Below are positions 25,004 through 52,120 of a stretch of DNA of 64,000 bases, piece by piece. The number at the start of each line of letters is the position of its first letter. Within the stretch, counting starts at the first letter, position 1. Location: contig NZ_AP027737.1 in the NCBI RefSeq assembly GCF_030296695.1, forward strand, positions 3,100,001-3,164,000, read 5' to 3'. The stretch comes from Agromyces mangrovi. Its GTDB lineage: Bacteria > Actinomycetota > Actinomycetes > Actinomycetales > Microbacteriaceae. The notes below the pieces were generated by a model. That model saw only the letters and a program-made list of their open reading frames with translations, had not been told where the DNA came from and made no database searches. The position numbers and the translations under genes were made by a program.

Positions 25004-25079
25004 GGCGAACCGTAGGAGATTCGGGCGGATGCCGCTGGCCGACGCGGCGCGTCGCCGAATCCGTCCTACGTTCGGCCCG
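25004..25079 (+). repeat. Intergenic palindromic element, copy 1
   Basis: A 76-base unit with arms GCGAACCGTAGGA and TCCTACGTTCGG around a GC-rich core that includes GGCGGATGCC and ACGCGGCGCGTCGCC. It belongs to a seven-copy family in this window and is in the same orientation as copies 2 and 3. Confidence 0.8.
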
Positions 25080-25101
25080 CCGCCGGGCCCGCGGCGCGCA
25101 C

Positions 25102-25470
25102 TCAGAAGTCGTCGGAGCTGATGCCGAGGCGTGCGAGCATCGCGTCGCGCTCGGTCGGAGGCAACCAGGCGAAGTCGTAGCGGCCATTCCGTGTCAGGGC
25201 GGCGCTTTCGACGTCCAGGTAGCCGGATCGCATCTCGGTGACCGCGAGGAACGGCGGGTAGTCCTCGGTCGAGGGCTCCCGCACGCCGTCCGTCCAGACC
25301 ACGATGTACCAGACCCACCACTGCTTCCGCAGCGGGCTGAACGGCGACCAGAACCAGCTCAGCGTGGTCGCCACGTGCCCCCGCACCTCGCCATCGCGGG
25401 TGAGCACCCCGACGCCGCCGTCGAACGGCTCGAGCGACTCATCGGGGTGGGGCGGTCTCACGATCGGCAC
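25102..25470 (-). CDS. Hypothetical protein
   Basis: A 122-residue protein I do not recognise. It is rich in aromatics, with a Trp cluster in TLSWFWSPFSPLRKQWWVWYIVVW around residues 37-60, cited here as SWFWSPF and QWWVWYIVVW. It has an acidic C-terminus ending ISSDDF. No signal peptide is evident; the aromatic stretch could be a buried beta-sheet rather than a membrane segment. The start is GTG 25470, with a TAGGCT -10-like element (complement of 25477-25482) six bases before it. It is bracketed by palindromic elements on both sides (copies 1 and 2). Confidence 0.6.
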   Translation of the reverse strand: MPIVRPPHPDESLEPFDGGVGVLTRDGEVRGHVATTLSWFWSPFSPLRKQWWVWYIVVWTDGVREPSTEDYPPFLAVTEMRSGYLDVESAALTRNGRYDFAWLPPTERDAMLARLGISSDDF

Positions 25471-25510
25471 TCGCCGAGCCTAGTGCCGCCTGACCCCAGG
25501 GCGCGTCCCA

Positions 25511-25583
25511 GGCGAACCGTAGGAGATTCGGGCGGATGCCGCTGTGCGGCGCGGCGCGCCCTTGATTGCGTCCTACGTTCGGC
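25511..25583 (+). repeat. Intergenic palindromic element, copy 2
   Basis: A 73-base unit starting GGCGAACCGTAGGAGATTCG and ending GCGTCCTACGTTCGGCC. The core has diverged on the right side relative to copy 1. Confidence 0.8.
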
Positions 25584-25604
25584 CCGTGCCTTCCGCCGGC
25601 CCGT

Positions 25605-25680
25605 GTGCGAACCGGAGGAGATTCGGGCGGATGGCGTCGGCTGACGCGGCGCGCCGCCGATTCCGTCCTACCTTCGGCAC
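25605..25680 (+). repeat. Intergenic palindromic element, copy 3
   Basis: A 76-base unit, GTGCGAACCGGAGGAGATTC to CCGTCCTACCTTCGGCAC, 21 bases after copy 2. The single changes in both arms partly compensate each other (CGGAGGA against TCCTACC), leaving a near-complete stem. Confidence 0.78.
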
Positions 25681-25708
25681 GCCGGCCGGGCCGATCGGCG
25701 ACGACGCG

Positions 25709-26182
25709 CTACGGCCGCCGGGCGAACCAGTGGGTCGCGTTCGGGTTGTCGTTGTAGGGCGCGATCTCGGCGTAGCCGAGCGAGCGGTAGAGCGAGCCGG
25801 CGGCCTCGAGGCTCGCGTTGGTGTCGAGCACGAGCTCCTCGGCGCCCATCTCGACGGCCCGGCGCTCGAGCTCGACCAGCAGCGCGCGGCCGCGGCCGCC
25901 GCCGCGGGCGGACGGCGCGACCCAGAGATGCTTGACCTCGTACCGCACGAGGCCGTCGTCGCCCGGCGGGACGCGGCGCACCCCGCCGCATCCGATGTCG
26001 ACACCGTCGGCCTGGAGCACCAGGAACACGCCGGCGGGCGGGGTGAACGGCTCGTCGACGGGGAAGGTCGGCGCGTACGCGCCCTGCGCGGGCGGGAAGC
26101 TCGCGGTGCGCTCGGCGAAGTAGGCCGCGAGCAGGCGCACGGCGGCCGGGTCGGTGGGCGGCGTGTCGACGTACTGGTCCAT
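25709..26182 (-). CDS. GNAT family N-acetyltransferase
   Basis: A 157-residue acetyltransferase. The family core is LVRYEVKHLWVAPSARGGGRGRALLVELE, with the acetyl-CoA loop ARGGGRGRALL near residues 92-102, followed by LVLDTNASLEAAGSLYRSLGY typical of the C-terminal half. The substrate is unknown. A TAGGCT -10-like element ends 8 bases upstream of ATG 26182. It is divergent from dapB with 62 bases between them. Confidence 0.85.
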   Translation of the reverse strand: MDQYVDTPPTDPAAVRLLAAYFAERTASFPPAQGAYAPTFPVDEPFTPPAGVFLVLQADGVDIGCGGVRRVPPGDDGLVRYEVKHLWVAPSARGGGRGRALLVELERRAVEMGAEELVLDTNASLEAAGSLYRSLGYAEIAPYNDNPNATHWFARRP

Positions 26183-26244
26183 CGGGCACCAGCCTACGAC
26201 CGCAGCGGGCAGGGCCCCGGACGGCCGGTTGCTAGGGTGAGTGC

Positions 26245-26994
26245 GTGACGAGTCGGGTGGCGGTCGTAGGCGCGACGGGCAGGATGGGCCGACTGGCCCT
26301 CGGGCTGATCGAACAGGCGGAGGACCTCGAGGTCCATGCGGAACTCGACTCGTCGTCGAGCCTCGACGAGATCGCCGGCGCCGACGTCGTGTTCGACGTC
26401 ACGCGCCCGGGCGTCACGGAGCGGGTCGTCGACCACGCGATCGACCTCGGAATCCCGACCGTCGTCGGCACCTCGGGCTGGCCGGCCGAGCGCATCGACC
26501 ACGTGCGCGGGCGGCTCGCGAGCGGCGACGAGGATGCCCCGGGCATCCTGTTCGTGCCGAACTTCTCGCTCGGCAGCGTGCTCGCCTCGCGGTTCGCTGC
26601 CATCGCCGCGCCCTACTTCGACTCGATCGAGATCATCGAGGCGCACCACGCCGGCAAGGTCGACTCGCCCTCCGGCACGGCCGTGCGCACGGCCGAGCTG
26701 ATCGGCGGCGCGCACCTCGGCGGACGCCCGGTCTCGGCGCCGCACTCCGACCAGCGCGCCCGCGGGCAGCTCGTCGCGGGCGTACCCGTGCACAGCCTGC
26801 GCATGGACGGCGTGCTCGCCAAGCAGGACGTCATCATGGGTGCGACCGGCGAGACCCTCACGCTCACGCACACGACGCAGAGCCCGTCGTCGTACGAGGC
26901 GGGCATCCTGCTCGCGCTGCGCGCGGCGCCCGAGGCGCGCGGCGTGTCCGTGGGCCTCGAGACGCTGCTCGACCTCGGGTTGCCGACCGAGTGA
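26245..26994 (+). CDS. dapB: 4-hydroxy-tetrahydrodipicolinate reductase
   Basis: A 249-residue NAD(P)H-dependent reductase of the diaminopimelate/lysine pathway, needed for peptidoglycan. The N-terminal Rossmann motif is VVGATGRMG (residues 7-15). The catalytic block EAHHAGKVDSPSGTA (about 132-146) contains the conserved His-His-Lys-Asp residues. Length is normal. The start GTG 26245 has a TAGGGT -10-like element six bases upstream and no ribosome site, consistent with leaderless translation. The next gene overlaps by GTGA. dapA follows at 32.5 kb and dapF at 45.1 kb. Confidence 0.96.
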   Translation: MTSRVAVVGATGRMGRLALGLIEQAEDLEVHAELDSSSSLDEIAGADVVFDVTRPGVTERVVDHAIDLGIPTVVGTSGWPAERIDHVRGRLASGDEDAPGILFVPNFSLGSVLASRFAAIAAPYFDSIEIIEAHHAGKVDSPSGTAVRTAELIGGAHLGGRPVSAPHSDQRARGQLVAGVPVHSLRMDGVLAKQDVIMGATGETLTLTHTTQSPSSYEAGILLALRAAPEARGVSVGLETLLDLGLPTE

Positions 26995-27446
26995 GCGCAC
27001 GCAACGCGGCGCGCGTCGGCGCCATCGTCATGGCCGTGCTGCTCGTCGGCTACATCGCCCTCGTCGGCTGGCGCGCCGTGCTCTTCATCGGCTCGGGCGA
27101 CCCGGTGGGCATCGCCATCGGCGTCGCGCTCGTCGTGCTGCCGGTCATCGCGGTCTGGGCGCTCTGGCGCGAACTCGCGTTCGGGGTGCGCTCCGAGCGA
27201 CTGGTCGACCGGCTCGACGAGGAGGACGGCCTGCCCGAGTTCCCCGCCCAGCCGAGCGGGCGGCCCGATCGCGCCGAGGCGACCGTCGCGTTCGACGCGT
27301 ACCGCGCCGAGACCGAGGCCGACCCGGAGTCGTGGCGCGCCTGGCTGCGGCTCGGCATCGCGTACGACGCGGCGGGCGACCGCCGTCGCGCCCGCGCTGC
27401 CGTGCGGCAGGCGATCACGCTGGAACGCGCGTCGGCTCCCCGCTGA
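26991..27446 (+). CDS. Membrane-anchored TPR-like protein
   Basis: A 151-residue protein with two transmembrane segments (about 8-30 and 36-58). A cytoplasmic acidic linker and a C-terminal tetratricopeptide-like helix pair (DPESWRAWLRLGIAYDAAGD and RRRARAAVRQAITLE) follow. The role is unknown; TPR ends usually bind proteins. GTG 26991 overlaps the dapB stop. Its 3' end overlaps the convergent SDR gene by 32 bases, an unusually large convergent overlap. Confidence 0.72.
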   Translation: MSARNAARVGAIVMAVLLVGYIALVGWRAVLFIGSGDPVGIAIGVALVVLPVIAVWALWRELAFGVRSERLVDRLDEEDGLPEFPAQPSGRPDRAEATVAFDAYRAETEADPESWRAWLRLGIAYDAAGDRRRARAAVRQAITLERASAPR

Positions 27447-28326
27447 GCATCGCGTCGATCGCGGCCTCCGCGGTCGCATGCTCGAACCGGAATCCGTCGT
27501 CCAGCAGCCGTGCCGGCACGACCTTCTGGCTCGCGAGCAGCATCTCGTCTGCCGCGCCGCCGATCGCCAGTCCGAGCACCGGTTCCGGGATCGTGAACGC
27601 GTAGGGCCGTCGCATCCGCTCTGCCAGTGCATGCGAGATGCGGTCGGAGGTGGCGGGCGTCGGCCCCGCGAGGTTCACCGGACCCGACAGCTCCGACTCG
27701 ACCAGCAGGTGACGGATGGCCCGCACCTCGTCCCGCAGGCTGATCCACGGCCAGTGCTGTCCGCCCGTGCCGAGCCGTGCGCCGAGGCCGAGCTTCGTCA
27801 GCAGCGACAGTCGCTGCATCGCGCCGCCGTCGCCCATCACGATGCCGCTGCGGAACATGACCGTTCGCGTCGCCTCGGGTGCGAGCCGGGCGGCGTCCTC
27901 CCAGCGGGTCACCACCTCGGCGAGGAACCCGTCGCCCGCCTGCGCCTCCTCGGTGAGCAGCTCCGCGGGGCGGTCGCCGTAGAACCCCGAGGCGGATGCG
28001 TTGAGGAACACCGCCGGCGGCGTGCGTGCCTGCCGCATCGCGTCGGTCAGGGTGCGGGTCGCGTCGACCCGTGAGGTGAGGATCTCGCGCCTGTACGCCG
28101 GCGTCCACGGCAGCCGGGCGAGGTTCGCGCCCGAGAAGTCGACGACCGCGTCGACACGGTCCATGATGGTGAAATCGATGATGCCCGAGCCGGGCGACCA
28201 GCTCAGCTCGTCGTCGGCGCGCGGCTTCCGCCGCACGAGGGTGACGACGTCATGCCCCTCGTCACGCAGCAGCGGAACGAGCGATGAGCCGATGAAGCCG
28301 GACGCCCCGGCGATGAGCACGCGCAC
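27415..28326 (-). CDS. TIGR01777 family NAD-dependent epimerase/dehydratase-like oxidoreductase
   Basis: A 303-residue extended-SDR-like protein. The N-terminal Rossmann motif is IAGASGFIGSSLVPLL (residues 5-20), with VDAVVDFSGANLA, LNASASGFYGD (active-site Tyr region) and the C-terminal PYAFTIPEPVLGLAIGGAADE typical of the TIGR01777 family. Bacterial members have unknown substrates; plant and cyanobacterial relatives act in division and chloroplast functions. It lies downstream of the OsmC gene on the same strand, three bases after its stop, so the two are probably cotranscribed. Confidence 0.9.
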   Translation of the reverse strand: MRVLIAGASGFIGSSLVPLLRDEGHDVVTLVRRKPRADDELSWSPGSGIIDFTIMDRVDAVVDFSGANLARLPWTPAYRREILTSRVDATRTLTDAMRQARTPPAVFLNASASGFYGDRPAELLTEEAQAGDGFLAEVVTRWEDAARLAPEATRTVMFRSGIVMGDGGAMQRLSLLTKLGLGARLGTGGQHWPWISLRDEVRAIRHLLVESELSGPVNLAGPTPATSDRISHALAERMRRPYAFTIPEPVLGLAIGGAADEMLLASQKVVPARLLDDGFRFEHATAEAAIDAMLSGEPTRVPA

Positions 28327-28329
28327 GGG

Positions 28330-28755
28330 TCAGGCGAGCTCCGCCTCGATCGTGATCGGGATTGCCGCGAGCGCCTGCGAGATCGGGCAGTTCGTCTTCG
28401 CGTCCTCGGCGAACGCCTCGAACTCCTCCTCGCTCATGCCTGGCACCCGGGCGCTCACGAGCAGGTGGCTGCCGAGCACGCCGCGCCCGGCCTCGAACGT
28501 GACCGCGGCGGTGGTCTGGATGCTCTCCGGCGGGTGTCCGGCGCCGGCGAGTGCGTTCGACAGCGCCATCGAGAAGCACGACGAGTGCGCCGCGGCGAGC
28601 AGTTCCTCGGGGTTCGTGGTGTCGCGCACGCCCTCCGAGCGGGCCGCCCAGTTCACGGGGAACGTGCCCGAGTCGGAGGAGTCCAGGTGCACGTCACCCG
28701 ATCCCTCGATCAGGCTGCCCTTCCAGACGGTGGTGGCCTCGCTCGTCACTGCCAT
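28330..28755 (-). CDS. OsmC family peroxiredoxin
   Basis: A 141-residue OsmC-type thiol peroxidase that reduces organic hydroperoxides. The two catalytic cysteines are in AAAHSSCFSMALS (about residue 60) and AKTNCPISQAL (about 123). NPEELLAAAHSSCFSMAL is the family signature. ATG 28755 follows AGGAGGAAGC. Downstream on the same strand is the TIGR01777 oxidoreductase; upstream are the thioredoxin-like and DUF4395 genes, so this stretch looks redox-related. Confidence 0.92.
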   Translation of the reverse strand: MAVTSEATTVWKGSLIEGSGDVHLDSSDSGTFPVNWAARSEGVRDTTNPEELLAAAHSSCFSMALSNALAGAGHPPESIQTTAAVTFEAGRGVLGSHLLVSARVPGMSEEEFEAFAEDAKTNCPISQALAAIPITIEAELA

Positions 28756-28820
28756 TGCTTCCTCCTCGTCGCGGTGGAAGCCAGCCTAGCCGCGGCCGTG
28801 CCGCACGGGGAGGGGTGGCG

Positions 28821-29273
28821 TCAGGATGCGCGGATGACCCGTGCGCGCACCAGCAGCGCGTACATGCGGCAGCCGAGGCAGAAGTCGAACGCCGCGTTGA
28901 GGAACGCCGCGACGAACGCGATCGACGCCGAGATCCAGACCGCCCCGTCGACGCCGAGGAGTGCGAGCACGAGGCCGGCACCGGTGACGGCGAAGCCGAC
29001 GCCCTGAGCGAAGGTCGGCGGGCGCGGGTCCTCCGTCTCGGCCGGAGGCGCGAGGCGAGGGCGCACGAAGCGCTTGAAGAGCGCACCCCAGGGGTGGCGG
29101 CGGATGCCCGCGAAGGCGCCCCACGCGAACAGCGCGACGAGCGCGGCGAGCAGCAGCAGCGCCGCGAGCGACGCGCCGGCGAGGTCGAGCACGACCACGG
29201 TGAGCAGCAGCACGGACGTGACGGCGGCGCCGAAGCGCGGGCCGCGCGGGTCGATCGGGTCAGGTCGTGACAC
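28821..29273 (-). CDS. DUF4395 membrane protein
   Basis: A 150-residue protein with four predicted membrane segments in two pairs (about 15-55 and 95-135). It carries the DUF4395 signatures DPRGPRFGAAVTS at the start and DFCLGCRMYALL near the end, with a CxxC pair that may be redox active. The start is GTG 29273. It follows the thioredoxin-like gene, an association common in actinobacteria that suggests a membrane disulfide function. This role is inferred from context. Confidence 0.82.
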   Translation of the reverse strand: MSRPDPIDPRGPRFGAAVTSVLLLTVVVLDLAGASLAALLLLAALVALFAWGAFAGIRRHPWGALFKRFVRPRLAPPAETEDPRPPTFAQGVGFAVTGAGLVLALLGVDGAVWISASIAFVAAFLNAAFDFCLGCRMYALLVRARVIRAS

Positions 29274-29704
29274 AGGGGGTCCTCGGGCGTTCGAGCGATG
29301 GGGAGTGCGGCCGTCACGTCGGCGCGCATCGGCGCACCGGCGAAGCGCTGCACCGCGACGCCGTCGGCGTCGAGCACGACGACGGTGGGGGTCTGCGTCA
29401 CGCGGAACCGCGCGGCGAGGTCGAGGTGCGTCGCGACGTCGAGCTCGACGTGCGCGAGGTCGGCGTCGGTCGCGGCGATCTCGCCGAGCGCGCGTGCGGT
29501 GCCGGGGCAGCGCGCGCAGAACTCGGAGGAGAACTGCAGCAGCGTGGCGCGCGCGGGCAGCGCGTCGAGGTCGAGCTCGGCGGCATCCGCTCGCTCGCCC
29601 TTCGAGGCCGCGGCCCGGCCCTCGCGGCGCTTCACCAGGACCCCGAGCACCGACGTGCCGGCCAGCAGGGCCGTGGCGACGCCGAGTGCGAGCAGGAGAT
29701 CCAT
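29260..29704 (-). CDS. Membrane-anchored thioredoxin family protein, probable indel near its 3' end
   Basis: An N-terminal membrane helix (MDLLLALGVATALLAGTSV, residues 1-22) is followed by a thioredoxin domain. The redox pair is SSEFCARCPGTARAL (CxRC), and FRVTQTPTVVVLDADG carries the cis-Pro region. As written, the frame has no stop until 28694 and runs through the DUF4395 gene out of register. Removing one C from the five-C run (29275-29279 on this strand) gives a stop at 29260-29262, a normal 147-residue protein and a short overlap with the DUF4395 start. Adding one C instead would fuse the two proteins. I consider the stop more likely. Confidence 0.75.
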
Positions 29705-29812
29705 GCACCCGAATGTACGCCTGCCCACCTGAGCGGCGCCCGAGTGTGACGGACGATGACGCGCCGCATCCGCCCCCTCGTCGCGGGCACTGACCGGGGC
29801 TACCATCGGGGC

Positions 29813-30622
29813 GTGGCCGCAGTCATCCCAACCCCGTACGAAGACCTGCTGCGCGAGGTGCTCGCCGGCGGCACGCCGAAGTCCGACCGCACCGGTACCG
29901 GCACGCGCAGCGTGTTCGGCCGCCAGCTGCGCTTCGACCTCGCCGAGGGCTTCCCGCTCATCACGACCAAGCGCGTGCACTTCAAGTCGGTCGCGTACGA
30001 GCTGCTGTGGTTCCTGCGCGGCGACTCGAACGTGCGCTGGCTGCAGGAGCACGGCGTCTCGATCTGGGACGAATGGGCGGATGCCTCGGGCGACCTCGGC
30101 CCCGTCTACGGCGTGCAGTGGCGATCGTGGCCGACGCCGTCGGGCGCGCACATCGACCAGCTCGCGCAGGTGATCGAGCAGATCCGCGTCTCGCCCGACT
30201 CGCGGCGCCTCGTCGTCTCGGCGTGGAACCCGGCCGACATCCCCGACATGGCGCTCGCGCCCTGCCACGCGCTGTTCCAGTTCTACGTGGCCGACGGCAG
30301 GCTGTCGTGCCAGCTCTACCAGCGCAGCGCCGACCTCTTCCTCGGGGTGCCGTTCAACATCGCCTCCTACGCGCTGCTCACCCACCTCGTCGCCGCGCAG
30401 ACCGGCCTCGGCGTCGGCGACTTCGTCTGGACCGGCGGCGACTGCCACATCTACGACAACCACGTCGACCAGGTGACCGAGCAGCTCACGCGCGACCCGT
30501 ACCCCTATCCCTCGCTGCGCATCACGGCCGACCGCTCGACCATCTCGGACTACGAGTTCGAGGACCTCGAGGTCGTCGACTACGTGCACCACCCCGCGAT
30601 CCGGGCCGCCGTCGCGGTATGA
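29813..30622 (+). CDS. thyA: Thymidylate synthase
   Basis: A 269-residue enzyme converting dUMP to dTMP with methylene-tetrahydrofolate. The active-site Cys151 is in [16 protein letters not shown] at the N-terminus and [18 protein letters not shown] are diagnostic. GTG 29813 has a TACCAT -10-like element six bases before it and no ribosome site. The stop overlaps the dihydrofolate reductase start, so the two enzymes that use and regenerate tetrahydrofolate are coupled. Of its 22 Asp codons, 21 are GAC and the only GAT is inside a GGATGC motif. Confidence 0.97.
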
Positions 30623-31167
30623 CGGATGCCCCTGAGCCGGCGCCTGGTCTCGGCGCGCCGTCGATCGGCCTGATCTGGGCCGAGGCGCGTGGCGGCGTCA
30701 TCGGGCGCGACGGTGTCATGCCGTGGCACCTCCCGGAGGACCTCGCGCACTTCCGTGACGTGACCCGCGGTGCCCCCGTGGTGATGGGCCGCCGCACCTG
30801 GGAGTCGCTGCCCCCGCGCTTCCGCCCGCTGCCCGGGCGTCGCAACATCGTCGTCTCGCGCGAGGCAGCGGCCGCCTTCGACGGCGCCGAGCACGCGGCA
30901 TCCGTGCCCGGCGCCCTCGCGCTCGCCGCCGCGCCCTCGCCCATGCCCCCGGACCGCATCTGGATCATCGGCGGCGCCGAGCTCTACCGCCAGACCATCG
31001 CCCTCGCCGACCGCCTCGAGGTGACGCGCATCGACGCCGACATCGACGGCGACACCCGCGCCCCCGCGATCGGCCCGCACTGGCGCCTCGCCGCATCCGA
31101 CCCCGCCTCCGGCTGGCACACCGCAGCCTCCGGCCTCCGCTACCGCTTCGACACCCTCGCCCGCTGA
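30619..31167 (+). CDS. folA: Dihydrofolate reductase
   Basis: A 182-residue NADPH-dependent enzyme reducing dihydrofolate made by ThyA. Family blocks are [20 protein letters not shown] (substrate site, Trp and Asp/Glu region), [12 protein letters not shown] (cofactor site) and [13 protein letters not shown] 30619 overlaps the thyA stop. Slightly longer than average because of an N-terminal extension ([15 protein letters not shown]). Confidence 0.95.
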
Positions 31168-31223
31168 CCCGCCCCCACCTGCGCGCGTCGCCCGCCGGCC
31201 CGCGTTCGGCCGACCCCGCCGGT

Positions 31224-31295
31224 GCGAAACGTAGGACTCGATCGGCGACGCGCCGCGTGGCCCACCCGCATCCGCCCACATTTCCTACGGTTCGC
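31224..31295 (-). repeat. Intergenic palindromic element, copy 4 (reverse orientation)
   Basis: Read on the minus strand it starts GCGAACCGTAGGA, has the core GGCGGATGC and ACGCGGCGCGTCGCC, and ends GTCCTACGTTTCGC. It is therefore inverted relative to copies 1-3. Confidence 0.78.
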
Positions 31296-31329
31296 TCTGC
31301 CGTCCCCGCGCCATCCATGCCCGGCTCGT

Positions 31330-31402
31330 GCGAAGCGTAGGACTCGATCGGCGACGCGCCGCGTGGCACGCCCGCATCCGCCCGATTCTCCTACGATTTG
31401 TC
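31330..31402 (-). repeat. Intergenic palindromic element, copy 5 (reverse orientation)
   Basis: Same core as copy 4, 34 bases further on. One outer arm has drifted (TCCTACGATTTGTC), weakening the stem. Together copies 4 and 5 fill most of the 330-base gap between folA and the AbiEi-like gene. Confidence 0.72.
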
Positions 31403-31497
31403 CCGCATCGTCTCCTCCACAGCCGCCCGAACCGCCCGAACTTCCCGTGAGACGCGGCCGACGCGCACCGCCGTCGCCGGACCGCCACGCTGCTCGA

Positions 31498-32367
31498 GTG
31501 ACTGAACCGCACCTCGTGCAGCGCACCTGCCGCGACCTCGGCGGCGTCGCCCGCGCCGCAGAGCTCGCCGCGGCAGGCGTAGGCCGACGCGCCCTGGCCC
31601 GCGCGCTCGCCGACGGCGCACTGATCCGGCTCCGCCAGGGGATCTACGCAATGCCCGACCTGGATCCCGACGCAGCCGCCGCCGTCCGCCACGGTGGAGC
31701 GCTCGGATGCCTCTCCGCGGCCCGCGCCCTCGGGCTCTGGGTGCTGACCGACGACGATCGCCTGCACGTGTCTATGCCCCCGACCGGGCGCTCGCGCGAG
31801 CACCCGGACTGCGCGTGCGTCCTGCACTGGACCGGCGGCGTACTCCGACCCATCGCATCGATCGTCGACGTGCTCCGCCAGGTGCTCGCGTGCGCCGGCC
31901 CGGAGGAATTCTTCGTGTGCCTGGAATCGGCGATGCGGCTGAAGCGGATCGACGCCGCCGGGGTCGCGCGCCTCCGCGCACGGGTGCCGTCCTGGGTGCG
32001 GCCACTCGTCGACGACGCCCAATGGGACGCAGACAGCGGCCTCGAGTCCCTGCTGCGGTTCCGGCTCCGCCCGTACCGGCTGCGAATCCGCTCGCAGGTG
32101 GTGATCCCGACCGTCGGTCGCGTGGACCACGTCATCGGCGACCGACTGATCCTCGAGGCGGACGGGCGCGAGAACCACGATGGTGGGTCCGAGCGACACC
32201 GAGACCTGGTCCGAGACGCGGCCGCCGCCGCGCTCGGGTTCGACACCCTTCGGTTCGACTACGCGCAGATCGTGCACGACTGGCCGTCGGTTCGTGCCGC
32301 GATCCTGGCCAAGGTCGATGCCGGCCTCCACCTGCGGTGTGCGGATCGGAGGAGATTCAGCGCCTGA
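31498..32367 (+). CDS. AbiEi-like antitoxin-domain protein with C-terminal nuclease-like domain
   Basis: A 289-residue two-domain protein. The N-terminal winged helix (about 8-60, GGVARAAELAAAGVGRRALA and GALIRLRQGIYAMPD) resembles the AbiEi antitoxin of type IV toxin-antitoxin systems. The C-terminal part (about 185-280), with SGLESLLRFRL, VGRVDHVIGDRLILEADG and FRLDYAQ-like LRFDYAQIVHDW, resembles DUF559/Vsr-type endonucleases: a Glu, then Asp...GxxLILEADG with a candidate ExK/DxD site. No AbiEii toxin partner is adjacent, so this is probably a stand-alone actinobacterial family rather than half of a TA pair. GTG 31498 is the likely start. Function unknown. Confidence 0.7.
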   Translation: MTEPHLVQRTCRDLGGVARAAELAAAGVGRRALARALADGALIRLRQGIYAMPDLDPDAAAAVRHGGALGCLSAARALGLWVLTDDDRLHVSMPPTGRSREHPDCACVLHWTGGVLRPIASIVDVLRQVLACAGPEEFFVCLESAMRLKRIDAAGVARLRARVPSWVRPLVDDAQWDADSGLESLLRFRLRPYRLRIRSQVVIPTVGRVDHVIGDRLILEADGRENHDGGSERHRDLVRDAAAAALGFDTLRFDYAQIVHDWPSVRAAILAKVDAGLHLRCADRRRFSA

Positions 32368-32464
32368 GCGTGCTCGGCAGCGGCGTGTCGACCGATTCCT
32401 CCTTCAGTTCGCACGCGAGGGTGCGACGCACGGCGCGCCCCGCCGGAGCGATAGCCTGTACCCC

Positions 32465-33442
32465 GTGACTTCCCCGGAGAACCCGTTCGGCCAGGTGCTC
32501 GTGGCACTCGTCACCCCGATGACCGCCGACGGCGAGGTCGACTGGCCCGCGGTCGAGCGCCACATGGACCACGTGATCGCGAACGGCGCCGACGGCATCG
32601 TCGTGACCGGCACGACCGGCGAGACCTCGACCCTCACCGACCCCGAGAAGATCCGCCTCGTCGAGGTCGGCAAGGACGTCGCGGCGGGCCGCGCCAAGAT
32701 CATCACGGGCGGCGGCTCGAACGAGACCGCGCACGCCATCGAGCTCTACCAGAAGAGCGAGCAGGCCGGCGCCGACGGCATCATGATCGTCACGCCGTAC
32801 TACAACAAGCCCACCCAGGCGGGCGTGCTCACGCACTTCCGCATGGTGGCGGATGCCACGGACCTGCCCGTGATCCTCTACGACATCCCCGGCCGCACCG
32901 GCGTCCCGATCAGGTACGAGACGATCCTGCGCGTCGCCAAGCACCCGAACATCCTCGCGATCAAGGACGCCAAGGGCGACTTCTCCGAGGTGAGTCGCGT
33001 GCTGAACCAGACCGACCTGATGTACTTCTCGGGCGACGACTCGAACGTGCTGCCGCACCTGTCGATCGGCGCGACCGGGCTCATCGGCGTGACCGCGAAC
33101 ATCGTGCCCGGGCCGTACCGCACGATCGTCGACGCGGTGAACGCGGGCGACCTCAAGACCGCCACCGCCGCCCACCGCCAGCTCGAGCCGCTCGTGCGCG
33201 CCACGATGACGCACGTGCCCGGCACGGTCGCGGCGAAGTACATCCTGCACGGCCTCGGCCGCATCGGCAGCCCGCGCGTGCGCCTGCCGCTCGTCGGGCC
33301 CGAGGAGTGGGAGGCTGCACTCATCGAGGACGAGATCGACCTCGTACGCGACCTTCCGGGCGTCGACTTCCGCCACTTCCGGCCCGACCGCAACGCCGCC
33401 GCGGGCGGCGCGCTGCCGAAGATCGCCGGCACCACCCGATAG
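32465..33442 (+). CDS. dapA: 4-hydroxy-tetrahydrodipicolinate synthase
   Basis: A 325-residue TIM-barrel Schiff-base aldolase condensing pyruvate with aspartate semialdehyde in lysine/diaminopimelate synthesis. The Schiff-base Lys167 is in ILAIKDAKGD, the catalytic Tyr in VILYDIPGRTG, and TGTTGETSTLT binds pyruvate. GTG 32465 has a TAGCCT -10-like element 7 bases upstream and no ribosome site, so a leaderless start is likely. rnj follows 60 bases downstream, the order seen in M. tuberculosis. Confidence 0.96.
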   Translation: MTSPENPFGQVLVALVTPMTADGEVDWPAVERHMDHVIANGADGIVVTGTTGETSTLTDPEKIRLVEVGKDVAAGRAKIITGGGSNETAHAIELYQKSEQAGADGIMIVTPYYNKPTQAGVLTHFRMVADATDLPVILYDIPGRTGVPIRYETILRVAKHPNILAIKDAKGDFSEVSRVLNQTDLMYFSGDDSNVLPHLSIGATGLIGVTANIVPGPYRTIVDAVNAGDLKTATAAHRQLEPLVRATMTHVPGTVAAKYILHGLGRIGSPRVRLPLVGPEEWEAALIEDEIDLVRDLPGVDFRHFRPDRNAAAGGALPKIAGTTR

Positions 33443-44195: not shown

Positions 44196-45112
44196 CCCTG
44201 ATCGCGGTCGTCGGCGCGACCGGCACCGGCAAGAGCGAGTTCGCGCTCGACGTCGCCGAGGCGATCGCCGCGCGCGGCGGCCGCGCAGAGGTCGTGAACG
44301 CCGACGCCATGCAGCTCTACCGGGGCATGGACATCGGCACCGCGAAGCTCGCGCCCCACGAGCGCCGGGGCGTGCCGCACCACCTGCTCGACGTGCTCGA
44401 CGTCACCGACGAGGCATCCGTCGCCGCGTACCAGCTCCAGGCGCGCGCCGCGATCACCGCGATCCGCGAGCGCGGCGCCGTGCCGTTGCTCGTGGGCGGG
44501 TCGGGCCTCTACGTCTCCGCCGTGCTCTACGAGTTCGAGTTCCCCGGCACCGACGCCGAGGTACGCGCACGGCTCGAGGCCGAGCTCGAGCGAGACGGTC
44601 GTGGCGCCCTGCATCGCCGCCTGCGCGAACTCGACGCGCCCACGGCCGAGGCGGTCGGCCCGCACAACGCCCGCCGCATCGTGCGTGCGCTCGAGGTGAT
44701 CGAGGTGACCGGTGAGCCGGCCGCGGCCCGGCTGCCCGACGAGCCGGTGCCATGGACGCGACACGAGACGGTGCGCCTGCACGTCGACCGCGACGAACTC
44801 GTACCGCGACTCGACGCGCGCGTCGAGCGCATGTGGCGCGACGGGATCGTCGACGAGGTGCGGGGGCTCATCCCGCAGGGCATCGAGCGCGGGGTCACCG
44901 CGAGCCGCGCGATCGGATACGCCCAGGCGATCGCCGAGGTGCACGAGAGGATGCCCCGGGAGGACGCCATCGCCGAGACGCAGGCGCTCACCCGGCGCTA
45001 CGCCCGCCGCCAGGTCGGCTGGTTCCGCCGGTACGCCGATACGACCGTGCTCGATGCGACCGACGCCGATGCGCGGGCCGAGCAGGTGCACCGCCTCGCG
45101 ACCCTAGACTGA
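44192..45112 (+). CDS. miaA: tRNA dimethylallyltransferase
   Basis: A 306-residue enzyme attaching the isopentenyl group to tRNA A37. The P-loop is [11 protein letters not shown] (residues 8-18), with [27 protein letters not shown] and the C-terminal [14 protein letters not shown] tRNA-binding block. GTG 44192 overlaps the miaB stop. The last codons contain the TAGACT promoter element of dapF. Confidence 0.96.
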
Positions 45113-45117
45113 TCGGC

Positions 45118-45999
45118 ATGCCGTTCGATCTGCCGTTCACCAAGGGCCAGGGCACGGGCAACGACTTCGTGCTCGTCTCAGACCCCGAGGGTGAGCTCGA
45201 CCTCACGCCCGAGCGCGTGCGCGCGATCTGCGACCGCCGGTTCGGCGTGGGCGGCGACGGCGTCATCCGCGCCGTGCGCTCGCGTGCGATCGACGAGGGC
45301 GCCGCCGCGCTCGCGGAGGAGCCCGCCGCCGAGTGGTTCATGGACTATCGCAACGCCGACGGCTCGATCGCCGAGATGTGCGGCAACGGCATCCGCGTCT
45401 TCACCCGGTACCTGCTCGAGCAGGGCCTCGCCACGCTCGAGCCCGGCAGCACGCTGCCGATCGGCACCCGCACGGGCGTGCACGACGTGATTGCGAGCGC
45501 CACCGGGTTCCAGGCCGACCTCGGCCGCTGGCGCCTCGAGGGCGGCGAGCCGCTCGTGCGCGCCAAGGAGCTGCCGGTCGCGCGCCCCGGCCTCGGCGTC
45601 GACGTGGGCAACCCGCACGTGGTCGTCGCGGTCGCCGACGACGACGAGCTCGAGTCGATCGACCTGTCGTTCGTCCCGGTGCTGGAGCCCGCACCCGAGG
45701 CGGGCGCGAACGTCGAGTTCGTGGTGCCGGGCGAGCCGCTCGTGGTCGACGGCGTCGGCCGCATCCGCATGCGCGTGCACGAGCGAGGGTCGGGGGAGAC
45801 GCTCTCGTGCGGCACCGGCGCGGTCGCGGCCGCCCTCGCGGTGCGCCACTGGGCGGGCGAGGGCGCGCCGAACGAGTGGCGCGTGCAGGTGCCGGGCGGC
45901 ATCCTCGGCGTGCGCATGTTCCCCGCCGAGGACGGCGAGCACGTGGCCCTCGCGGGCCCGGCCGAGCTGGTCTTCGACGGCGTCGTAGCGGTCGAGTAG
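45118..45999 (+). CDS. dapF: Diaminopimelate epimerase
   Basis: A 293-residue cofactor-free epimerase converting LL- to meso-diaminopimelate. The two catalytic cysteines are in [10 protein letters not shown] and [13 protein letters not shown], and the N-terminal GTGNDFVL binds substrate. ATG 45118 lies 7 bases after a TAGACT element that overlaps the end of miaA, so it can be expressed as its own leaderless transcript. Gene order miaB-miaA-dapF-hflX is the standard actinobacterial one. Confidence 0.96.
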
Positions 46000-46009
46000 C
46001 GCGCGGGCC

Positions 46010-46621
46010 TCAGCCGGCCCGGCGCACCCGCAGCACCCGGAACCCCTTGCTGATCGTCTCGCGCGTCACGTCGAAGTCGTCGGGCAGTTCGCCCTGCAGC
46101 CAGCGTTGCAGTGAGTCCGAGCCGAGGTTGCGCTGCACGACGAGCCAGGCGTCGCCGCCCGGCTCGAGGCGCGGCAGCCAGCGCAGCAGCAGCGCGTGCA
46201 GCTCCTGCTTGCCGATGCGGATCGGCGGGTTCGACCAGATGCTGCGGAACTGGAGCCCCTCGGGAACATCGTCGGGCAGTGCGGCGTTGACCTGAGGCAG
46301 GCCGAGTGCGGCGGCGTTGCGGCGCACGAGGTCGAGGGCCCGCTCGTTCACGTCGACCGCCCAGACGTCGGCGTGGGGCGACTCGAGGCCGAGCGTCAGC
46401 GCGATCGGCCCCCAGCCGCAGCCGATGTCGAGCAGCGCCCCGCCGGGCGGCGGCTCGGGCGCGTTGGCCAGCAGCACCCGGGTGCCCTGGTCGATGCGAT
46501 CGGGGCTGAAGATGCCGGATGCGGTGGTCAGCGTGACCTCGCGACCGGCGAGTCGCACCTGGAGGGGCCGGAGGGCGCCGGAGCTGGCGGGCTGCGACGA
46601 GAAGTAGTGGTCCGACGCCAT
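46010..46621 (-). CDS. Class I SAM-dependent methyltransferase (RsmC/RlmG-like)
   Basis: A 203-residue methyltransferase. The SAM motif is LLDIGCGWGPIALTLG (about 63-78), with VDVNERALDLVRRNAAALG next, and the catalytic motif SNPPIRIGKQ (about 130-139), the NPPY-type sequence of N2-guanine RNA methyltransferases. The RsmC-like fold suggests 16S or 23S rRNA guanine as target, not certain. A TACGTT -10-like element (complement of 46628-46633) lies six bases before ATG 46621. It is divergent from hflX with a 41-base gap. Confidence 0.88.
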   Translation of the reverse strand: MASDHYFSSQPASSGALRPLQVRLAGREVTLTTASGIFSPDRIDQGTRVLLANAPEPPPGGALLDIGCGWGPIALTLGLESPHADVWAVDVNERALDLVRRNAAALGLPQVNAALPDDVPEGLQFRSIWSNPPIRIGKQELHALLLRWLPRLEPGGDAWLVVQRNLGSDSLQRWLQGELPDDFDVTRETISKGFRVLRVRRAG

Positions 46622-46662
46622 AGAGGGAACGTAGCGCAGAGCGAGGAACTAGGGTTAACGGG

Positions 46663-48213
46663 ATGGATCGTACCGAGGAACGGCTGACCGCCGACGACGA
46701 CGCCGTGGAGCGGGTGCTCGCCCACGGCGATTCGCACGCGCGCGGATTCAGCCTGTTCGACGGTCGCGCCGGGGCGCTCCAGGCGCATGAGACGGCGACG
46801 GATGCCTCGGGCGGCGACGCCTACGACGGCGACCAGTTCGACCGTGAGGACCGCGCCGCGCTCCGCCGCGTCGTCGGCCTCTCGACCGAGCTCGAGGACG
46901 TCACCGAGGTCGAGTACCGGCAGCTGCGCCTCGAGAACGTGGTGCTCATCGGCGTGCACCCGCAGGGTGGGCTGCGCGACGCGGAGAACTCGCTGCGCGA
47001 GCTCTCCGCACTCGCCGAGACCGCCGGCGCGCGCGTGCTCGACGGCCTGCTCCAGCGCCGTCCGCACCCCGATCCCTCCACCTACCTCGGTCGCGGCAAG
47101 GCAGAGGAGCTGCGCATGATCGTGCGGTCCCTCGGCGCCGACACCGTCATCGCCGACACCGAGCTCGCACCGAGCCAGCGTCGTGCGCTGGAGGACGTGG
47201 TGAAGGTCAAGGTCATCGACCGCACGGCCGTGATCCTCGACATCTTCAGCCAGCACGCCAAGAGCCGCGAGGGCAAGGCGCAGGTCGAGCTCGCGCAGCT
47301 CGAGTACCTGCTCCCGCGCCTGCGCGGCTGGGGTGAGTCGATGTCCCGCCAGGCCGGTGGCCAGGTGGGCGGCGCGGGCGCCGGCATGGGCTCCCGCGGA
47401 CCCGGTGAGACGAAGATCGAGCTCGACCGCCGCCGCATCCACACCCGCATGTCCCGCCTGCGCAAGCAGATCGCGGCGATGAAGCCGGCCCGCGAGGCCA
47501 AGCGCGCGAACCGCCGCCGCAACGCGGTGCCGTCGGTCGCGATCGCCGGGTACACCAACGCCGGCAAGTCGAGCCTCGTCAACCGCATCACGGGCGCGGG
47601 CGTGCTCGTCGAGAATGCCCTGTTCGCGACCCTCGACGCGACCGTGCGCCGCAACCAGACCCCCGACGGCCGCCTGTACACGATCGCCGACACGGTCGGC
47701 TTCGTGCGCAACCTGCCGCACCAGCTCGTCGAGGCGTTCCGATCGACGCTCGAGGAGGTCGGCGACTCCGACCTGATCGTGCACGTCGTCGACGCGTCGC
47801 ACCCCGATCCGGCGAGCCAGCTCGCCACGGTGCGCGACGTCATCGGCGAGCTCGGCGCACGAGACATCCCCGAGCTCGTGGTCTTCAACAAGTCCGACCT
47901 CATCGACGACGAGGAGCGCCTGGTGCTCCGCGGCCTCGAGCCCGACGCGGTCTTCGCGTCGGCGCGCACGGGTGCGGGCATCCCCGAGCTGCTCGAGGTC
48001 ATCGCCGCGCGCATCCCCGACCCCTCGGTCGAGGTCGACCTGCTGGTGCCGTACGACCGCGGCGACATCGTCTCGACGCTGCACGAGGCCGGCCGCGTGC
48101 TCGAGGTCGACTACCGCGACGAGGGCACGCACGTGCGCGCGCTCGCGAACCCCGAGCTCGCCGCGCAGCTCGCCGAGTACTCGGTGCGCCCCGCGGCATC
48201 CGTCGCCGAATAG
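46663..48213 (+). CDS. hflX: GTPase HflX
   Basis: A 516-residue ribosome-associated GTPase that splits or rescues stalled ribosomes. The N-terminal HflX domain (about 80-290) ends in [20 protein letters not shown], the glycine-rich hallmark. The G domain has G1 [11 protein letters not shown] near 296, ATLDAT (G2 region), DTVGF (G3) and NKSD (G4). ATG 46663 follows TAGGGT by 7 bases (leaderless arrangement). Length is within the actinobacterial range. Confidence 0.96.
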
Positions 48214-48446
48214 CCCCGGAGCCCGCCCCGCCTGCGGGCCGCCGATCGCCGCAGACCCTCGCACGTCACATTCGGTCACGGGGCTGACGGCGCCGGGCGA
48301 CCGGCGTATCGTCGTGATCGATCGTTGCGACGGGCCCGGCCCGCCGCGTGGAGCGACCGCCGAGCCCGGCACCCGCCCGCGACACCGACCACGCGTCGGG
48401 TCCGCGGCCTGCCGTGCGCCCGTCGCCCCGAGACGATGGGGACCCG

Positions 48447-49439
48447 ATGTCCGAGACCGGCCGAACCCGAGCGCACGACGACCTCGCCGTGCGGCGCGTT
48501 CCCGTGTCGTTCGAGCTGTTCCCGCCCCGGTCGGATGCCGCGGCCATCGCCCTCGGTCGCACCATCGACAAGCTCGCCGAGGCCGACCCCGCGTTCATCT
48601 CGGTGACGTTCGGCGCGGGCGGCTCGACGCACGACCGGTCGCTCACGGTGCTGCGGTACATCCTCGACCAGACCGAGGTCGAGCCGATGGCGCATCTGAC
48701 CTGCGTCGGCTCGTCGCACGAGGAGGCGAACCACCTCGTGCGCGAGTTCCTCGACGCGGGCATCACGAGCTTCCTCGCGCTGCGCGGCGACCCGCCGAAG
48801 GACTCCGACGGCGACGGCCTCGGCGACCTCGGCTCGTCGGCCGAGCTCGTGCAGCTCATCCACCGGGTGCAGCAGGAGCGCGAGCCGTTCGCGCAGCTCG
48901 GCGTCCCTGGGGCGCCGAAGGCGCGGCGCATCGAGGACCGCCCGCGGCCCGAGCGCGTCGCGGTCGCCACGTTCCCCACGGGGCATCCGCGCTCGGCCAA
49001 TCGCCGACAGGACGTCGACGCGCTGCTCGCCAAGGAGGTCGCCGGCGCGAACCTCGCGATCACCCAGCTGTTCTGGCACGCCGACGACTACCTCCGCTTC
49101 GTCGACCTCGCGCGCGAGGGCGGCGTGACCATCCCGATCCTGCCCGGCATCATGCCGGTGGTCTCGCCGAAGCGACTCGCGCGGCTCACCGAGCTGACCG
49201 GCGTGCCCGCGCCCGACGACCTCGCGATCGCGCTCGAGATCGAGCCCGACGAGGCGGCGCAGCGCGAGATCGGCATGCGCTTCGCGACCGACCTCGCGCG
49301 CGCCGTGATCGACGGCGGCGCCCCCGGCCTGCACCTCTACACCTTCAACCGCCACGAGGCCGTGCTCGGCGTGCTCGCCGAGCTCGACCTCTTCCCGCCC
49401 CGGGCCGCCCGGCCCACGTCACTCACGGAGCACGCATGA
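48447..49439 (+). CDS. metF: Methylenetetrahydrofolate reductase
   Basis: A 330-residue FAD enzyme making 5-methyl-tetrahydrofolate for methionine synthesis. Family segments are [11 protein letters not shown] (catalytic Glu), [31 protein letters not shown] and ITQLFW. ATG 48447 is preferred over frames starting further up, because the family begins near VSFELFPP. The 233 bases upstream hold a TATCGT -10-like element near 48308 and no riboswitch I could recognise. It overlaps metE by ATGA, so methyl donor and acceptor enzymes are coupled. Confidence 0.94.
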
Positions 49440-51772
49440 CCAGCAACACGTTCCCGTCCGGCACCATCCTCGGCTATCCGCGCATCGGGCGCCGCCGCGA
49501 GCTCAAGCGCGCGGTGGAGTCCTTCTGGGCGGGCCGCATCGACGAGGCGGAGCTCGAGCACACCGCCGCCGAGCTGCGCGCCGCGACCCGGTCGCGGTTG
49601 CAGGAGCTCGGCCTCGGCGCCGACGACTCGGCCATTCCCGAGTCGTTCTCGTACTACGACCAGGTGCTCGACGCCGCGGTCGCCGTCGGCGCGATTCCCG
49701 AGCGCTTCGCCGACCTCGCAGGCGACTCGGGCCGCGTCGGCCTCGACGCCTACTTCACGATCGCGCGCGGCGAGGGCGACAAGGCGCCGCTCGAGATGAC
49801 CAAGTGGTTCGACTCGAACTACCACTACCTCGTGCCCGAGATCGCGGCCGACACCGCCTTCCGCCTCGCCGACGACCGCATCGTGCGCGAGGTCGCCGAG
49901 GCGCGCGCGGCGGCCCTCGTCACCCGCCCGGTCGTCGTCGGACCCGTGACGCTGCTGCTGCTCAGCAAGGCTGCAGACGGGTCGGATGCCTCGTTCCGCC
50001 CGCTCGACCGCCTCGACGACCTGCTCCCGGTGTACGTCGAGCTCCTCGCCCGGCTCGCCGACGCGGGCGCCGAGTGGGTGCAGCTCGACGAGCCCGCGCT
50101 CGTGTCGGAGAGCATCGACGTCGACCCGGCCGATGCCCGTGCCGCGCTCGCGCGCGCATACGACGTGCTCGGCGGGGCATCCGCCCGCCCCTCGATCTTC
50201 GTCGCGGCGCCCTACGGTGCGCTCGACGCCGCCCTGCCCGTGCTCGCCGCGAGCCCGGTCGAGGCGATCGGGCTCGACCTCGTGCGTGGCACGGCTCCGG
50301 TCGGCGTCGACGAGGCCACCCGCGCGGGCCTCGCGACCAAGACGATCGTCGCGGGCGTGATCGACGGGCACAACGTGTGGCGCGGCGACCTCGCCGGCGC
50401 GCTGGCCGCGGCCGAGGGCCTGCGCGGCCTCGGCGCCGACCTCGCCGTGTCGACCTCGACCTCGCTGCTGCACGTGCCGCACGACGTCGACGACGAGCCG
50501 TCGCTCGACGCGCGCCTGCGCTCGTGGCTCGCGTTCGCCGACCAGAAGGTCGCACAGGTCGCCGTGCTCGCCCGCGGGCTCGCCGGGGGAGCGGATGCGG
50601 TCGCCGGCGACCTCGCGGCCGCGACCGAGGCGCTGGCCGACCGCCTCGGTGCGCCCGGCGTGCGCGACGGTGCGGTGCGCGACCGCCTCGCGGGCCTCGA
50701 CGCCGGCGCCGGCACCCGCGCCGACTACGACGAGCGCGTCGCCGCGCAGGCGGGGCTCGGCCTGCCGGTGCTGCCGACGACGACGATCGGGTCGTTCCCG
50801 CAGACCGGCGACATCCGCCGCGCACGCGCCCGGCACGGCCGCGGCGAGCTCGACGACGCCGGGTACGAGTCGCTCATGCGCGAGGAGATCGAGCGGGTCA
50901 TCCGCCTCCAGGAGGAGATCGGCCTCGACGTGCTCGTCCACGGCGAGCCCGAGCGCAACGACATGGTGCAGTACTTCGCCGAGCTCCTCGACGGCTTCGC
51001 CGTCACCGAGAACGGCTGGGTGCAGTCGTACGGCAGCCGCTGCACGCGCCCGTCGATCCTCTGGGGCGACGTGTCGCGCCCCGAGCCGATGACCGTCGCG
51101 TGGTCGCAGTACGCGCAGTCGCTCTCGGACAAGCCCGTCAAGGGCATGCTGACCGGCCCGGTGACGATCCTCGCCTGGTCGTTCGTGCGCGACGACCAGC
51201 CGCTCGGCGACACCGCGAACCAGGTCGCGCTCGCGCTGCGCGACGAGATCGCCGACCTCGAGACCGCGGGCATCCGCATCATCCAGGTCGACGAGCCGGC
51301 CCTGCGCGAGCTGCTGCCGCTGAAGCGCGCCGACCAGCCCGCGTACCTCGACTGGTCGGTGGGCGCGTTCAGGCTCGCGACCGGCGGCGCGGCGACGGCC
51401 ACGCAGGTGCACACGCACCTCTGCTACTCGGAGTTCGGCGTGGTGATCGACGCGATCCGCGCGCTCGACGCCGACGTGACGAGCATCGAGGCGGCGCGCA
51501 GCCGCATGGAGGTCGTCGACGACCTGCGCACGAGCGGCTTCGACCACGGCGTCGGCCCGGGCGTGTACGACATCCACTCGCCGCGCGTGCCGAGCGTCGC
51601 CGAGGTCACGCAGCTGCTCGAGCGCGCGGCCGGTGCCCTGCCGCTCCGCCAGGTCTGGGTGAACCCCGACTGCGGCCTGAAGACCCGCGGCTACGACGAG
51701 ACCGTCGCGTCGCTGCGCAACATCATCGACGCGACCCGCGAGGTGCGCGCCCGCGCTGCGGTGCAGGCCTGA
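49436..51772 (+). CDS. metE: 5-methyltetrahydropteroyltriglutamate--homocysteine S-methyltransferase (cobalamin-independent methionine synthase)
   Basis: A 778-residue enzyme transferring the methyl group from methyl-THF-polyglutamate to homocysteine. It has two homologous barrels. The N-terminal half starts at [13 protein letters not shown]; the catalytic half has [17 protein letters not shown]. The zinc ligands are in THLCYSEF (His-x-Cys), the Glu of EAARSRME and the C-terminal [18 protein letters not shown] precedes ATG 49436. Despite its frequent control by B12 or SAM riboswitches elsewhere, none is visible here. A hairpin follows the stop. Confidence 0.96.
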
Positions 51773-51774
51773 GC

Positions 51775-51824
51775 GGATGCCTCGGGGCTGCGCGCGCCCC
51801 TGCGCACGCCGCCCCGGGGCATCC
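51775..51824 (+). terminator. Terminator hairpin after metE
   Basis: Arms GGATGCCTCGGGG (51775-51787) and CCCCGGGGCATCC (51812-51824) pair over 13 bases with one G-T wobble, two bases after the metE stop. Confidence 0.65.
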
Positions 51825-51916
51825 GTCGCCCTGCCGTGCGAGGGCCCGCGGATCCGCCCCGCGTGGGCCTTCGCATCCGACGCCCCGCGCGGCGTGAGCC
51901 CGCGCCGACCCGCCAC

Positions 51917-51992
51917 GTGCGAAACGTAGGAGATTCGCTTATCGGGACGCCCGTGTAGCGGCGTGTCGTGGAACGGGTCCTACGCTTCGCAC
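51917..51992. repeat. Intergenic palindromic element, copy 6
   Basis: GTGCGAAACGTAGGAGATTC on the left and GGTCCTACGCTTCGCAC on the right give a 76-base unit. The core retains TAGCGGCGTGTCGTG, related to the core of copies 1-5. The 367-base gap between metE and lexA holds this unit, copy 7 and the metE terminator, and nothing else recognisable. Confidence 0.8.
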
Positions 51993-52040
51993 GGCCCGTG
52001 CCGGCCGCGCGGGCCGTGCTTCCCGGCGTCGTGCCACCCC

Positions 52041-52120
52041 GCGTGCGAAATGTAGGAGATTCGCGGGGCGGGGCACCCCGCCAGCGGCGTGTCGCGCAAC
52101 GAGTCCTACGTTTCGCACGC
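52041..52120. repeat. Intergenic palindromic element, copy 7
   Basis: An 80-base unit with arms GCGTGCGAAATGTAGGA and TCCTACGTTTCGCACGC and core CAGCGGCGTGTCGCG. It ends 19 bases before the lexA stop, so it may also serve as the lexA terminator. Confidence 0.8.

Follow-up and report, generated by a model that had tools for sequence, protein, structure and literature searches.

A dispersed family of palindromic elements associated with a resident AbiEi-DUF559 nuclease in Agromyces mangrovi

The stretch of DNA analyzed here, referred to as the window, comprises 64,000 nucleotides of Agromyces mangrovi (contig NZ_AP027737.1, positions 3,100,001 to 3,164,000) and carries eight copies of a palindromic element together with the gene of a nuclease (31498-32367) that combines an AbiEi-like winged helix with a DUF559 (Vsr-like) domain. 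With slightly better than even confidence, the palindromes are regarded as short non-autonomous elements that resemble repetitive extragenic palindromes (REPs) and belong to this resident chromosomal nuclease. Judged from sequence comparison, the association between palindromes and nuclease is strong and recognition of the palindromes by the nuclease likely. Their mobilization by the nuclease would be the best single explanation, as yet unproven, with a role as operators as its main rival, and the transfer step is the least certain part of this explanation. The features of the window, with their covariance-model matches, are the following.

24999-25082, plus strand: element c1, 86.9 bits
25506-25589, plus strand: element c2, 75.7 bits
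25601-25684, plus strand: element c3, 77.6 bits, 95 bp after c2
31218-31301, minus strand: element c4, 81.8 bits, upstream of the nuclease gene
31324-31407, minus strand: element c5, 78.0 bits, 106 bp from c4 and upstream of the nuclease gene
31498-32367, plus strand: gene of the AbiEi-like winged helix and DUF559 (Vsr-like) nuclease, 289 amino acids, GTG start inferred from homologs
32335-32418, plus strand: eighth element c8, 53.1 bits (E 2.5e-10), outside the training set of the model
51913-51996, plus strand: element c6, 79.6 bits, between metE and lexA (neighbours assigned by Pfam)
52039-52122, plus strand: element c7, 85.7 bits, 126 bp after c6, with a DNA folding z-score of -5.4

An earlier sequence-only reading of the window had described a family of seven copies, two of them inverted. 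All seven were recovered, c4 and c5 on the opposite strand, and the family proved larger, with c8 as an eighth copy in the window and 21 copies in the genome, a single contig of 3.61 Mb. The claim that the units occur only between genes holds for these seven according to the lists of open reading frames (ORFs); c8 covers the final 11 codons of the nuclease gene, its stop codon among them. The 17 closest own-genome copies, which include c1-c7, align without gaps over 84 bp, have a core of a single length (60 bp) and served to train the covariance model R1, which added four full-length copies with scores of 53 to 43 bits, two being one base longer. The pattern GTAGGA-N{40,52}-TCCTAC is found at 14 sites genome-wide, in 14/14 cases with exactly N46, compared to one site for the reversed control pattern. 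The 21 copies group into three wide regions, at about 1.23-1.34, 2.05-2.45 and 3.12-3.15 Mb, and the 17 copies include seven tandem pairs, in four of which the partners are each other's closest copies. A second model, R2, was built from 29 diverse copies of the genus, three of which adjoin the nuclease gene, and had matches in 51 of the 60 Agromyces genomes (E<=1e-4); further copies are present both in the same genome and in relatives. Their common form is arm-GGA-(GATTC)-CGACACGCCG-loop-CGGCGTGTCG-(GAATC)-TCC-arm, with variable arms, the inner half-sites CGACACGCCG and CGGCGTGTCG and a loop of 8 or 18-19 nucleotides.

The nuclease gene is bracketed by c4, c5 and c8. Pfam, PADLOC and the fold agree on the AbiEi-like DNA-binding identity of its product, for which all PADLOC matches are AbiEi (best E 2.9e-10). 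The C-terminal part has a Vsr- and homing-endonuclease-like fold of the PD-(D/E)XK type, and the residues E183, D210, E220, D222 and H227, which are of the type that is catalytic in the Vsr-like family and presumably so here, are invariant across 36 aligned sequences. Equally invariant in 36 aligned sequences are C71, C105, C107, H110 and C132, a possible metal site between both domains. The protein family is numerous: of 7996 candidates scored, 979 are homologs at E<=1e-10, annotated only as "very-short-patch-repair endonuclease", "DUF559" or "AbiEi antitoxin". An AbiEii toxin gene was not seen beside the nuclease gene, where folA and dapA adjoin in 29 of 30 loci, no AbiEii profile having been run. 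The gene first surfaced as a cluster of five loci in a recurrent-neighbour search of 80 named loci; an 11-locus cluster from the same search was taken for common transporters and rejected (its member L131_3 resembles an ABC-transport ATPase).

The elements had been found without reference to the gene. A protein search of the 60 Agromyces genomes, extended to 30 of the 40 genomes outside the genus that had been scanned for elements, gave a match in 55 Agromyces genomes and delimited a close clade with 31 members, each from a different genome (loci L242-L271 and, as the 31st, L292). The order thyA-folA-gene-dapA is conserved in 29 of the first 30 loci; the cut-off locus L264 retains dapA only, and L292 has folA and dapA. 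In a search with R2 (E<=0.1) that spanned 1.5 kb on most sides, elements adjoin the gene in 29 of these 30 loci, the own locus included (both sides in 22, one side in 7), and L292 carries elements on both sides. No match is farther than about 210 bp from the gene, bar one weak intragenic match (E 0.09). At the level of genomes, elements occur in 31/31 with a close-clade gene and in 20/29 without it (Fisher p 0.0007). Among 120 named loci of a listing that holds at least 120 (all used for this gene check, 80 for the loop and neighbour surveys), seven contain the gene, all from Microbacterium and all with elements on both sides; of the other 113, which lack it, 17 have two elements at a distance of 0.8-1.5 kb.

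The association extends to more distant relatives of the nuclease. Forty further Agromyces homologs (L272-L311, taken from lower-scoring or remaining listed matches) comprise 39 distant ones and the close-clade gene L292. At E<1e-8 the left flank is similar to the right flank in 21 of these 40, compared to 3 of 142 other genes (Fisher 1e-13); in the close clade, with L264 left out because of its contig end, 16 of 29 do so. At E<1e-5 the counts are 26/40, 19/29 and 8/142. A cut-off of E<1e-3 was found too loose (33/40 and 23/29, with 37/142 controls) and 1e-8 was relied on; the control genes come from element-holding loci of other genera, and some of these control values may be inflated. Of 15 homologs outside the family but within the order, nine have matching flanks at 1e-5 and seven at 1e-8, and three are devoid of similarity. 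Two of them, L366 and L375, have near-identical flanking repeats (extremes of 108 bp with 93.5% and 132 bp with 98.5% identity), which hints at gene conversion or recent activity. Where inspected, the flanking palindromes differ between paralog families. Distant DUF559 paralogs have palindromes of their own, such as TTTGTCGGACA (L297), GGGAACACATTC (L299), ACGCATGAGAATCC (L283/L301) and GGCGATCGCCACGA (L273/L284).

On average, scattered copies agree best with the arms beside the nuclease of their own genome. For 53 scattered copies of 20 genomes (the 40 best among the matches listed and 13 others, eight of which are from A. mangrovi), the arm match to the own-genome locus is 8.98 of 11, compared to 6.65 between genomes; permutations gave a mean of 6.76 (standard deviation 0.33) and none of 5000 was as high, and shared ancestry adds to this matching. 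Mantel tests were carried out on 19 genomes with syntenic loci, and G028 was excluded, its flanks being those of a distant paralog. Arm similarity correlates with the identity of the N-terminal helix-turn-helix (HTH) domain (residues 1-60; r 0.58, and 0.51 given the nuclease domain, both 0/5000), compared to 0.01 for the nuclease domain given the HTH domain. When four close relatives are removed, the values are 0.48 (0/5000) for the HTH and 0.03 for the nuclease domain. The inner segment follows the opposite pattern, with 0.38 (9/5000) for the nuclease domain given the HTH domain and -0.03 for the HTH given the nuclease domain (0.20 for the HTH domain alone, 282/5000), in a single run with a single definition of the segment. 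The HTH domain could track species relationships better than the nuclease domain, which, however, could not explain the reversal for the inner motif.

Taken as a mechanism, the N-terminal AbiEi-type winged helices of a dimer would read the two arms. According to PMC7319586, the AbiEi antitoxin of Streptococcus agalactiae binds inverted repeats and regulates its own expression, a precedent that lends plausibility to recognition of the arms by the N-terminal domain. The C-terminal Vsr-like domains would act on the inner half-sites, which would lie on one helix face (loops of 8 or 18-19 nucleotides, with many tandem spacings near 95, 105 and 126 bp). Once nicked or cut at the inner half-sites, the palindrome might be copied to other intergenic positions during replication or repair.

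With a pattern permitting loops of 4-24 in the 80 named loci, the loops of Microbacterium among the matches listed measure 18 (40 copies) or 19 (16 copies) and no other size; those of Amnibacterium measure 18 or 19, those of Agromyces 8 (2/2) and those of Nocardioides 8 in seven of nine copies. A set of 94 Agromyces copies falls into lengths of 83-86 bp (62 copies) and 93-96 bp (31 copies), with one copy of 75 bp and none of 87-92 bp; some matches outside this set measure, for instance, 81-82 or 87-88 bp. The start-to-start spacings of tandem copies below 200 bp, 25 cases from four genomes among the matches listed, are 94-96 bp in 14 cases and 105-106 bp in six. The remaining ones are 85, 99, 120, 126 and 149 bp, of which 99 and 120 (both from G015) are off the helical phase. 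Several tandem pairs recur as orthologs in more than one species, which makes the phasing suggestive only. Lengths and spacings that change in steps of about one turn of the helix suggest a protein bound to duplex DNA, and shared descent may contribute to them.

Such steps would also suit binding sites of an enzyme of defence or genome maintenance (self-marking, repair or recombination) that have been spread passively by recombination. The uniform AbiEi matches in PADLOC and the Vsr- and homing-endonuclease-like fold speak for this possibility. Low copy number and clustering are, however, ill suited to a genome-wide mark, and the nearest neighbours thyA, folA and dapA are not known defence genes, the wider surroundings not having been searched. 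We consider this alternative decidedly improbable.

The sequence-only reading had claimed that arm changes are compensated among the copies and had deduced selection for the hairpin. This deduction found no support within the genome, where 85.5% of the arm cells of the 17 copies pair, compared to 85.1% after shuffling, in a gapless count that gives no credit to bulged pairing. The covariation score of these copies is 0.053, compared to 0.044 after shuffling (80 of 500 shuffles as high), and their level of further pair types was reached by 467 of 500 shuffles. Between genomes compensation is above chance: the arms differ strongly across the genus and stay complementary, with 81.4% pairing in the 29 diverse copies compared to 72.0% after shuffling and a covariation score of 0.302 compared to 0.156 (0/500 shuffles). 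The size of this pairing effect is inflated, since the copies were chosen with a pair-aware model that favours paired arms. Arms that are conserved as sequence within a genome and covary between genomes fit two half-sites that each follow one protein, and are compatible with a hairpin; the covariation can equally stem from two half-sites tracking one changing protein. Some copies do fold as hairpins, as DNA or RNA; the DNA folding z-scores of c1-c7 range from -5.4 (c7) to 0.0 (c3), and c1, c6 and c7 clearly beat their shuffles. Together with the genus-wide covariation, this folding is what speaks for RNA hairpins, either transcription terminators or structured RNAs selected for pairing. This explanation is very unlikely: compensation is not in excess within the genome, Rfam has no match in the window at its gathering score, the arms co-vary with a protein domain, and a free RNA loop would hardly be expected to give the length classes of 83-86 and 93-96 bp, even if other lengths (81-82, 87-88) occur.

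The sites of two clusters were compared between species. At 24980-25698, G001 and G054 are empty, G015 has one element and G023 has a small ORF and one element. Between metE and lexA the pair recurs in G001, the site is empty in G015, and G054 has other sequence. Sites filled in some species and empty in others, at two loci, mean that elements come or go and the nuclease gene remains. The ORF between c1 and c2/c3 (25102-25470, minus strand, 122 amino acids, without a Pfam match) is present in the own genome and G023, and the same site lacks it in G001, G015 and G054; it is a possible cargo gained or lost together with the elements. At the metE-lexA site G023 (L319/L322) carries a different near-perfect palindrome with arms of about 25 bp, GCCTGCATGTTTCGTCGTTC. 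The palindromes beside the second DUF559 paralog of G023 (L294) share TGCATGTTT-CG with it, a string too short to claim paralog-specific scattering. The lexA-like gene beside c7 (52143-53118, minus strand) seems to change its reading frame, its S24 part (52143-52460) and its LexA-like N-terminal part lying in different frames of the ORF list, by sequencing error or a real break. Short GGCGGATGC / GCATCCGCC strings are scattered genome-wide outside the elements (for example at L017, L020, L023 and L025) and also occur inside c1-c5.

The distribution of sites bears on the main rival, according to which the palindromes are operators: the AbiEi-type domain would repress its own gene and a regulon through them, the nuclease would act elsewhere in defence or repair, and scattered copies would be regulatory sites or duplicates that arose without transfer by the nuclease. 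The autoregulating antitoxin of S. agalactiae, which according to PMC7319586 binds inverted repeats, provides a precedent; c4 and c5 lie upstream of the gene, the arms track the HTH domain, and by rough gene calls six of the 21 own-genome copies lie between divergent genes, the others being convergent (8) or co-directional (7). Elements are, however, also found downstream of the gene, two sites are empty in related species and the inner motif tracks the nuclease domain. Convergent positions, poor places for operators, account for eight of the 21 own-genome copies and for 28 in the named loci, where rough gene calls placed 30 further copies between co-directional and five between divergent genes (63 placed of 93, with 23 inside called ORFs and seven without a neighbour). 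A bias towards 3' ends, indicated by the five divergent cases among these 63, was rejected, as the own genome does not show it. The operator explanation is judged unlikely, a degree of doubt smaller than that attached to the other rivals.

Several observations weigh against attribution of the elements to the nuclease. Operators would account for binding and co-evolution just as well. L258 is without a detectable element and L264 has a weak one only (E 0.023); the strict flank test is failed by 13 of 29 close-clade loci and 19 of 40 further homologs. The elements also occur in the 20 genomes without the close-clade gene mentioned above, which other paralogs might serve. The same-genome flank is best or tied-best for 29 of the 53 scattered copies, and those of G020, G059, G034 and G008, possibly belonging to other paralogs, match their own flank poorly. 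The domain correlations rest on 19 genomes, and the middle region of the protein (61-175) tracks the arms too (r 0.54, and 0.18 given the HTH domain, 105/2000). At the two compared sites transposition itself was not seen and insertion was not told apart from deletion; no clean target-site duplication emerged, with a 6-bp direct repeat, TGAGCG, at one site and none seen at the other.

The family extends to at least 52 of 249 sampled genomes and at least 31 of 85 sampled genera of the Microbacteriaceae, Agromyces counted (R2, E<=1e-5), a lower bound obtained with 18 candidates scored per genome. Identical inner half-sites, combined with different arms and loops of 5-9, are also present in actinobacteria of other orders, namely in Nocardioides (L135, L142, L147, L153, L168, L169, L184, L190), Geodermatophilus (L133, L180) and Arthrobacter (L125); a nuclease homolog was not found in the fetched stretches of these loci (tblastn, E 1e-8), which are stretches and not whole genomes. 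At a little below even confidence, we propose that each AbiEi-DUF559 nuclease, a member of a large actinobacterial family, may maintain and spread its own palindromic family, as a second, independently evolved system of the REP type, in which the winged helix would read the variable arms and the Vsr-like domain the conserved inner dyad, with each part of the site co-evolving with its domain. AbiEi-DUF559 proteins gain a concrete predicted DNA partner and a bacterial repeat family gains a candidate enzyme. If mobilization were confirmed, unrelated folds would have given rise to dedicated palindrome enzymes on at least two occasions, and the correspondence of arms and inner motifs with protein domains would provide a natural series of protein-DNA specificity pairs.

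In the open-access literature, no paper was found that links such palindromes to DUF559/AbiEi nucleases, most subscription papers and preprints being outside the scope of the search. AbiEi antitoxins of type IV toxin-antitoxin systems differ from the present protein, which has a fused nuclease domain and sites scattered over the genome. The Vsr endonuclease and the homing endonuclease I-Bth0305I differ as well, as the protein described here has another partner domain, palindromic repeats and no intron. Miniature inverted-repeat transposable elements (MITEs) are likewise short, non-autonomous inverted-repeat elements; unlike in their case, the close-clade enzyme gene keeps its place within the genus, consistent target duplication was not seen at the two sites compared, and the palindromes are without a known parent insertion sequence, none having been searched for. 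TIRtrons, RAYT-like genes with long inverted repeats that are described in PMC3733652, share the placement of the enzyme gene between two matched inverted-repeat units, which may also form a dispersed family; their enzyme is a tyrosine (HUH) transposase.

The closest parallel is with REPs and REPINs (REP doublets with a RAYT, according to PMC3116915) and their REP-associated tyrosine transposases (RAYTs, or TnpA-REP), which together form "REPtrons". As described in PMC3733652, RAYT genes are flanked by REPs or long inverted repeats, and REPs measure 20-40 bp and carry a GTAG or CGTC tag at one end, those with CGTC apparently lacking a dedicated transposase. The sequence-only reading had likened the palindromes to REPs mobilized by Y1 transposases. 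Its outline stands, as the elements are dispersed, mostly intergenic, often paired, variably present and tied to an enzyme gene; its enzyme does not, since none of 60 Agromyces genomes gave a match (E<=0.001) to the Y1 transposase profile PF01797, for which 5 of 14 control genomes were positive in the same search. The lack of a Y1 match means that this is not a RAYT system, despite the same layout. Mobilization by a Y1/RAYT transposase, to which palindromic, dispersed, often paired and extragenic repeats would otherwise point, is refuted as far as PF01797 detects such genes and retains a negligible probability. The elements also differ in size and design, being 84 or 94-95 bp long with conserved inner half-sites instead of the 20-40 bp and terminal tag of REPs; GTAG lies inside the arm, and in 14 of 20 genomes the elements that flank the gene lack it. 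In both systems short palindromes are dispersed outside genes, some of them flank a resident enzyme gene, and the repeat sequence is matched to the genome's own enzyme, which is here an AbiEi-type HTH and Vsr-like protein and not a Y1 HUH transposase. The nuclease would do for these repeats, by unrelated chemistry, what the RAYT is thought to do for REPs.

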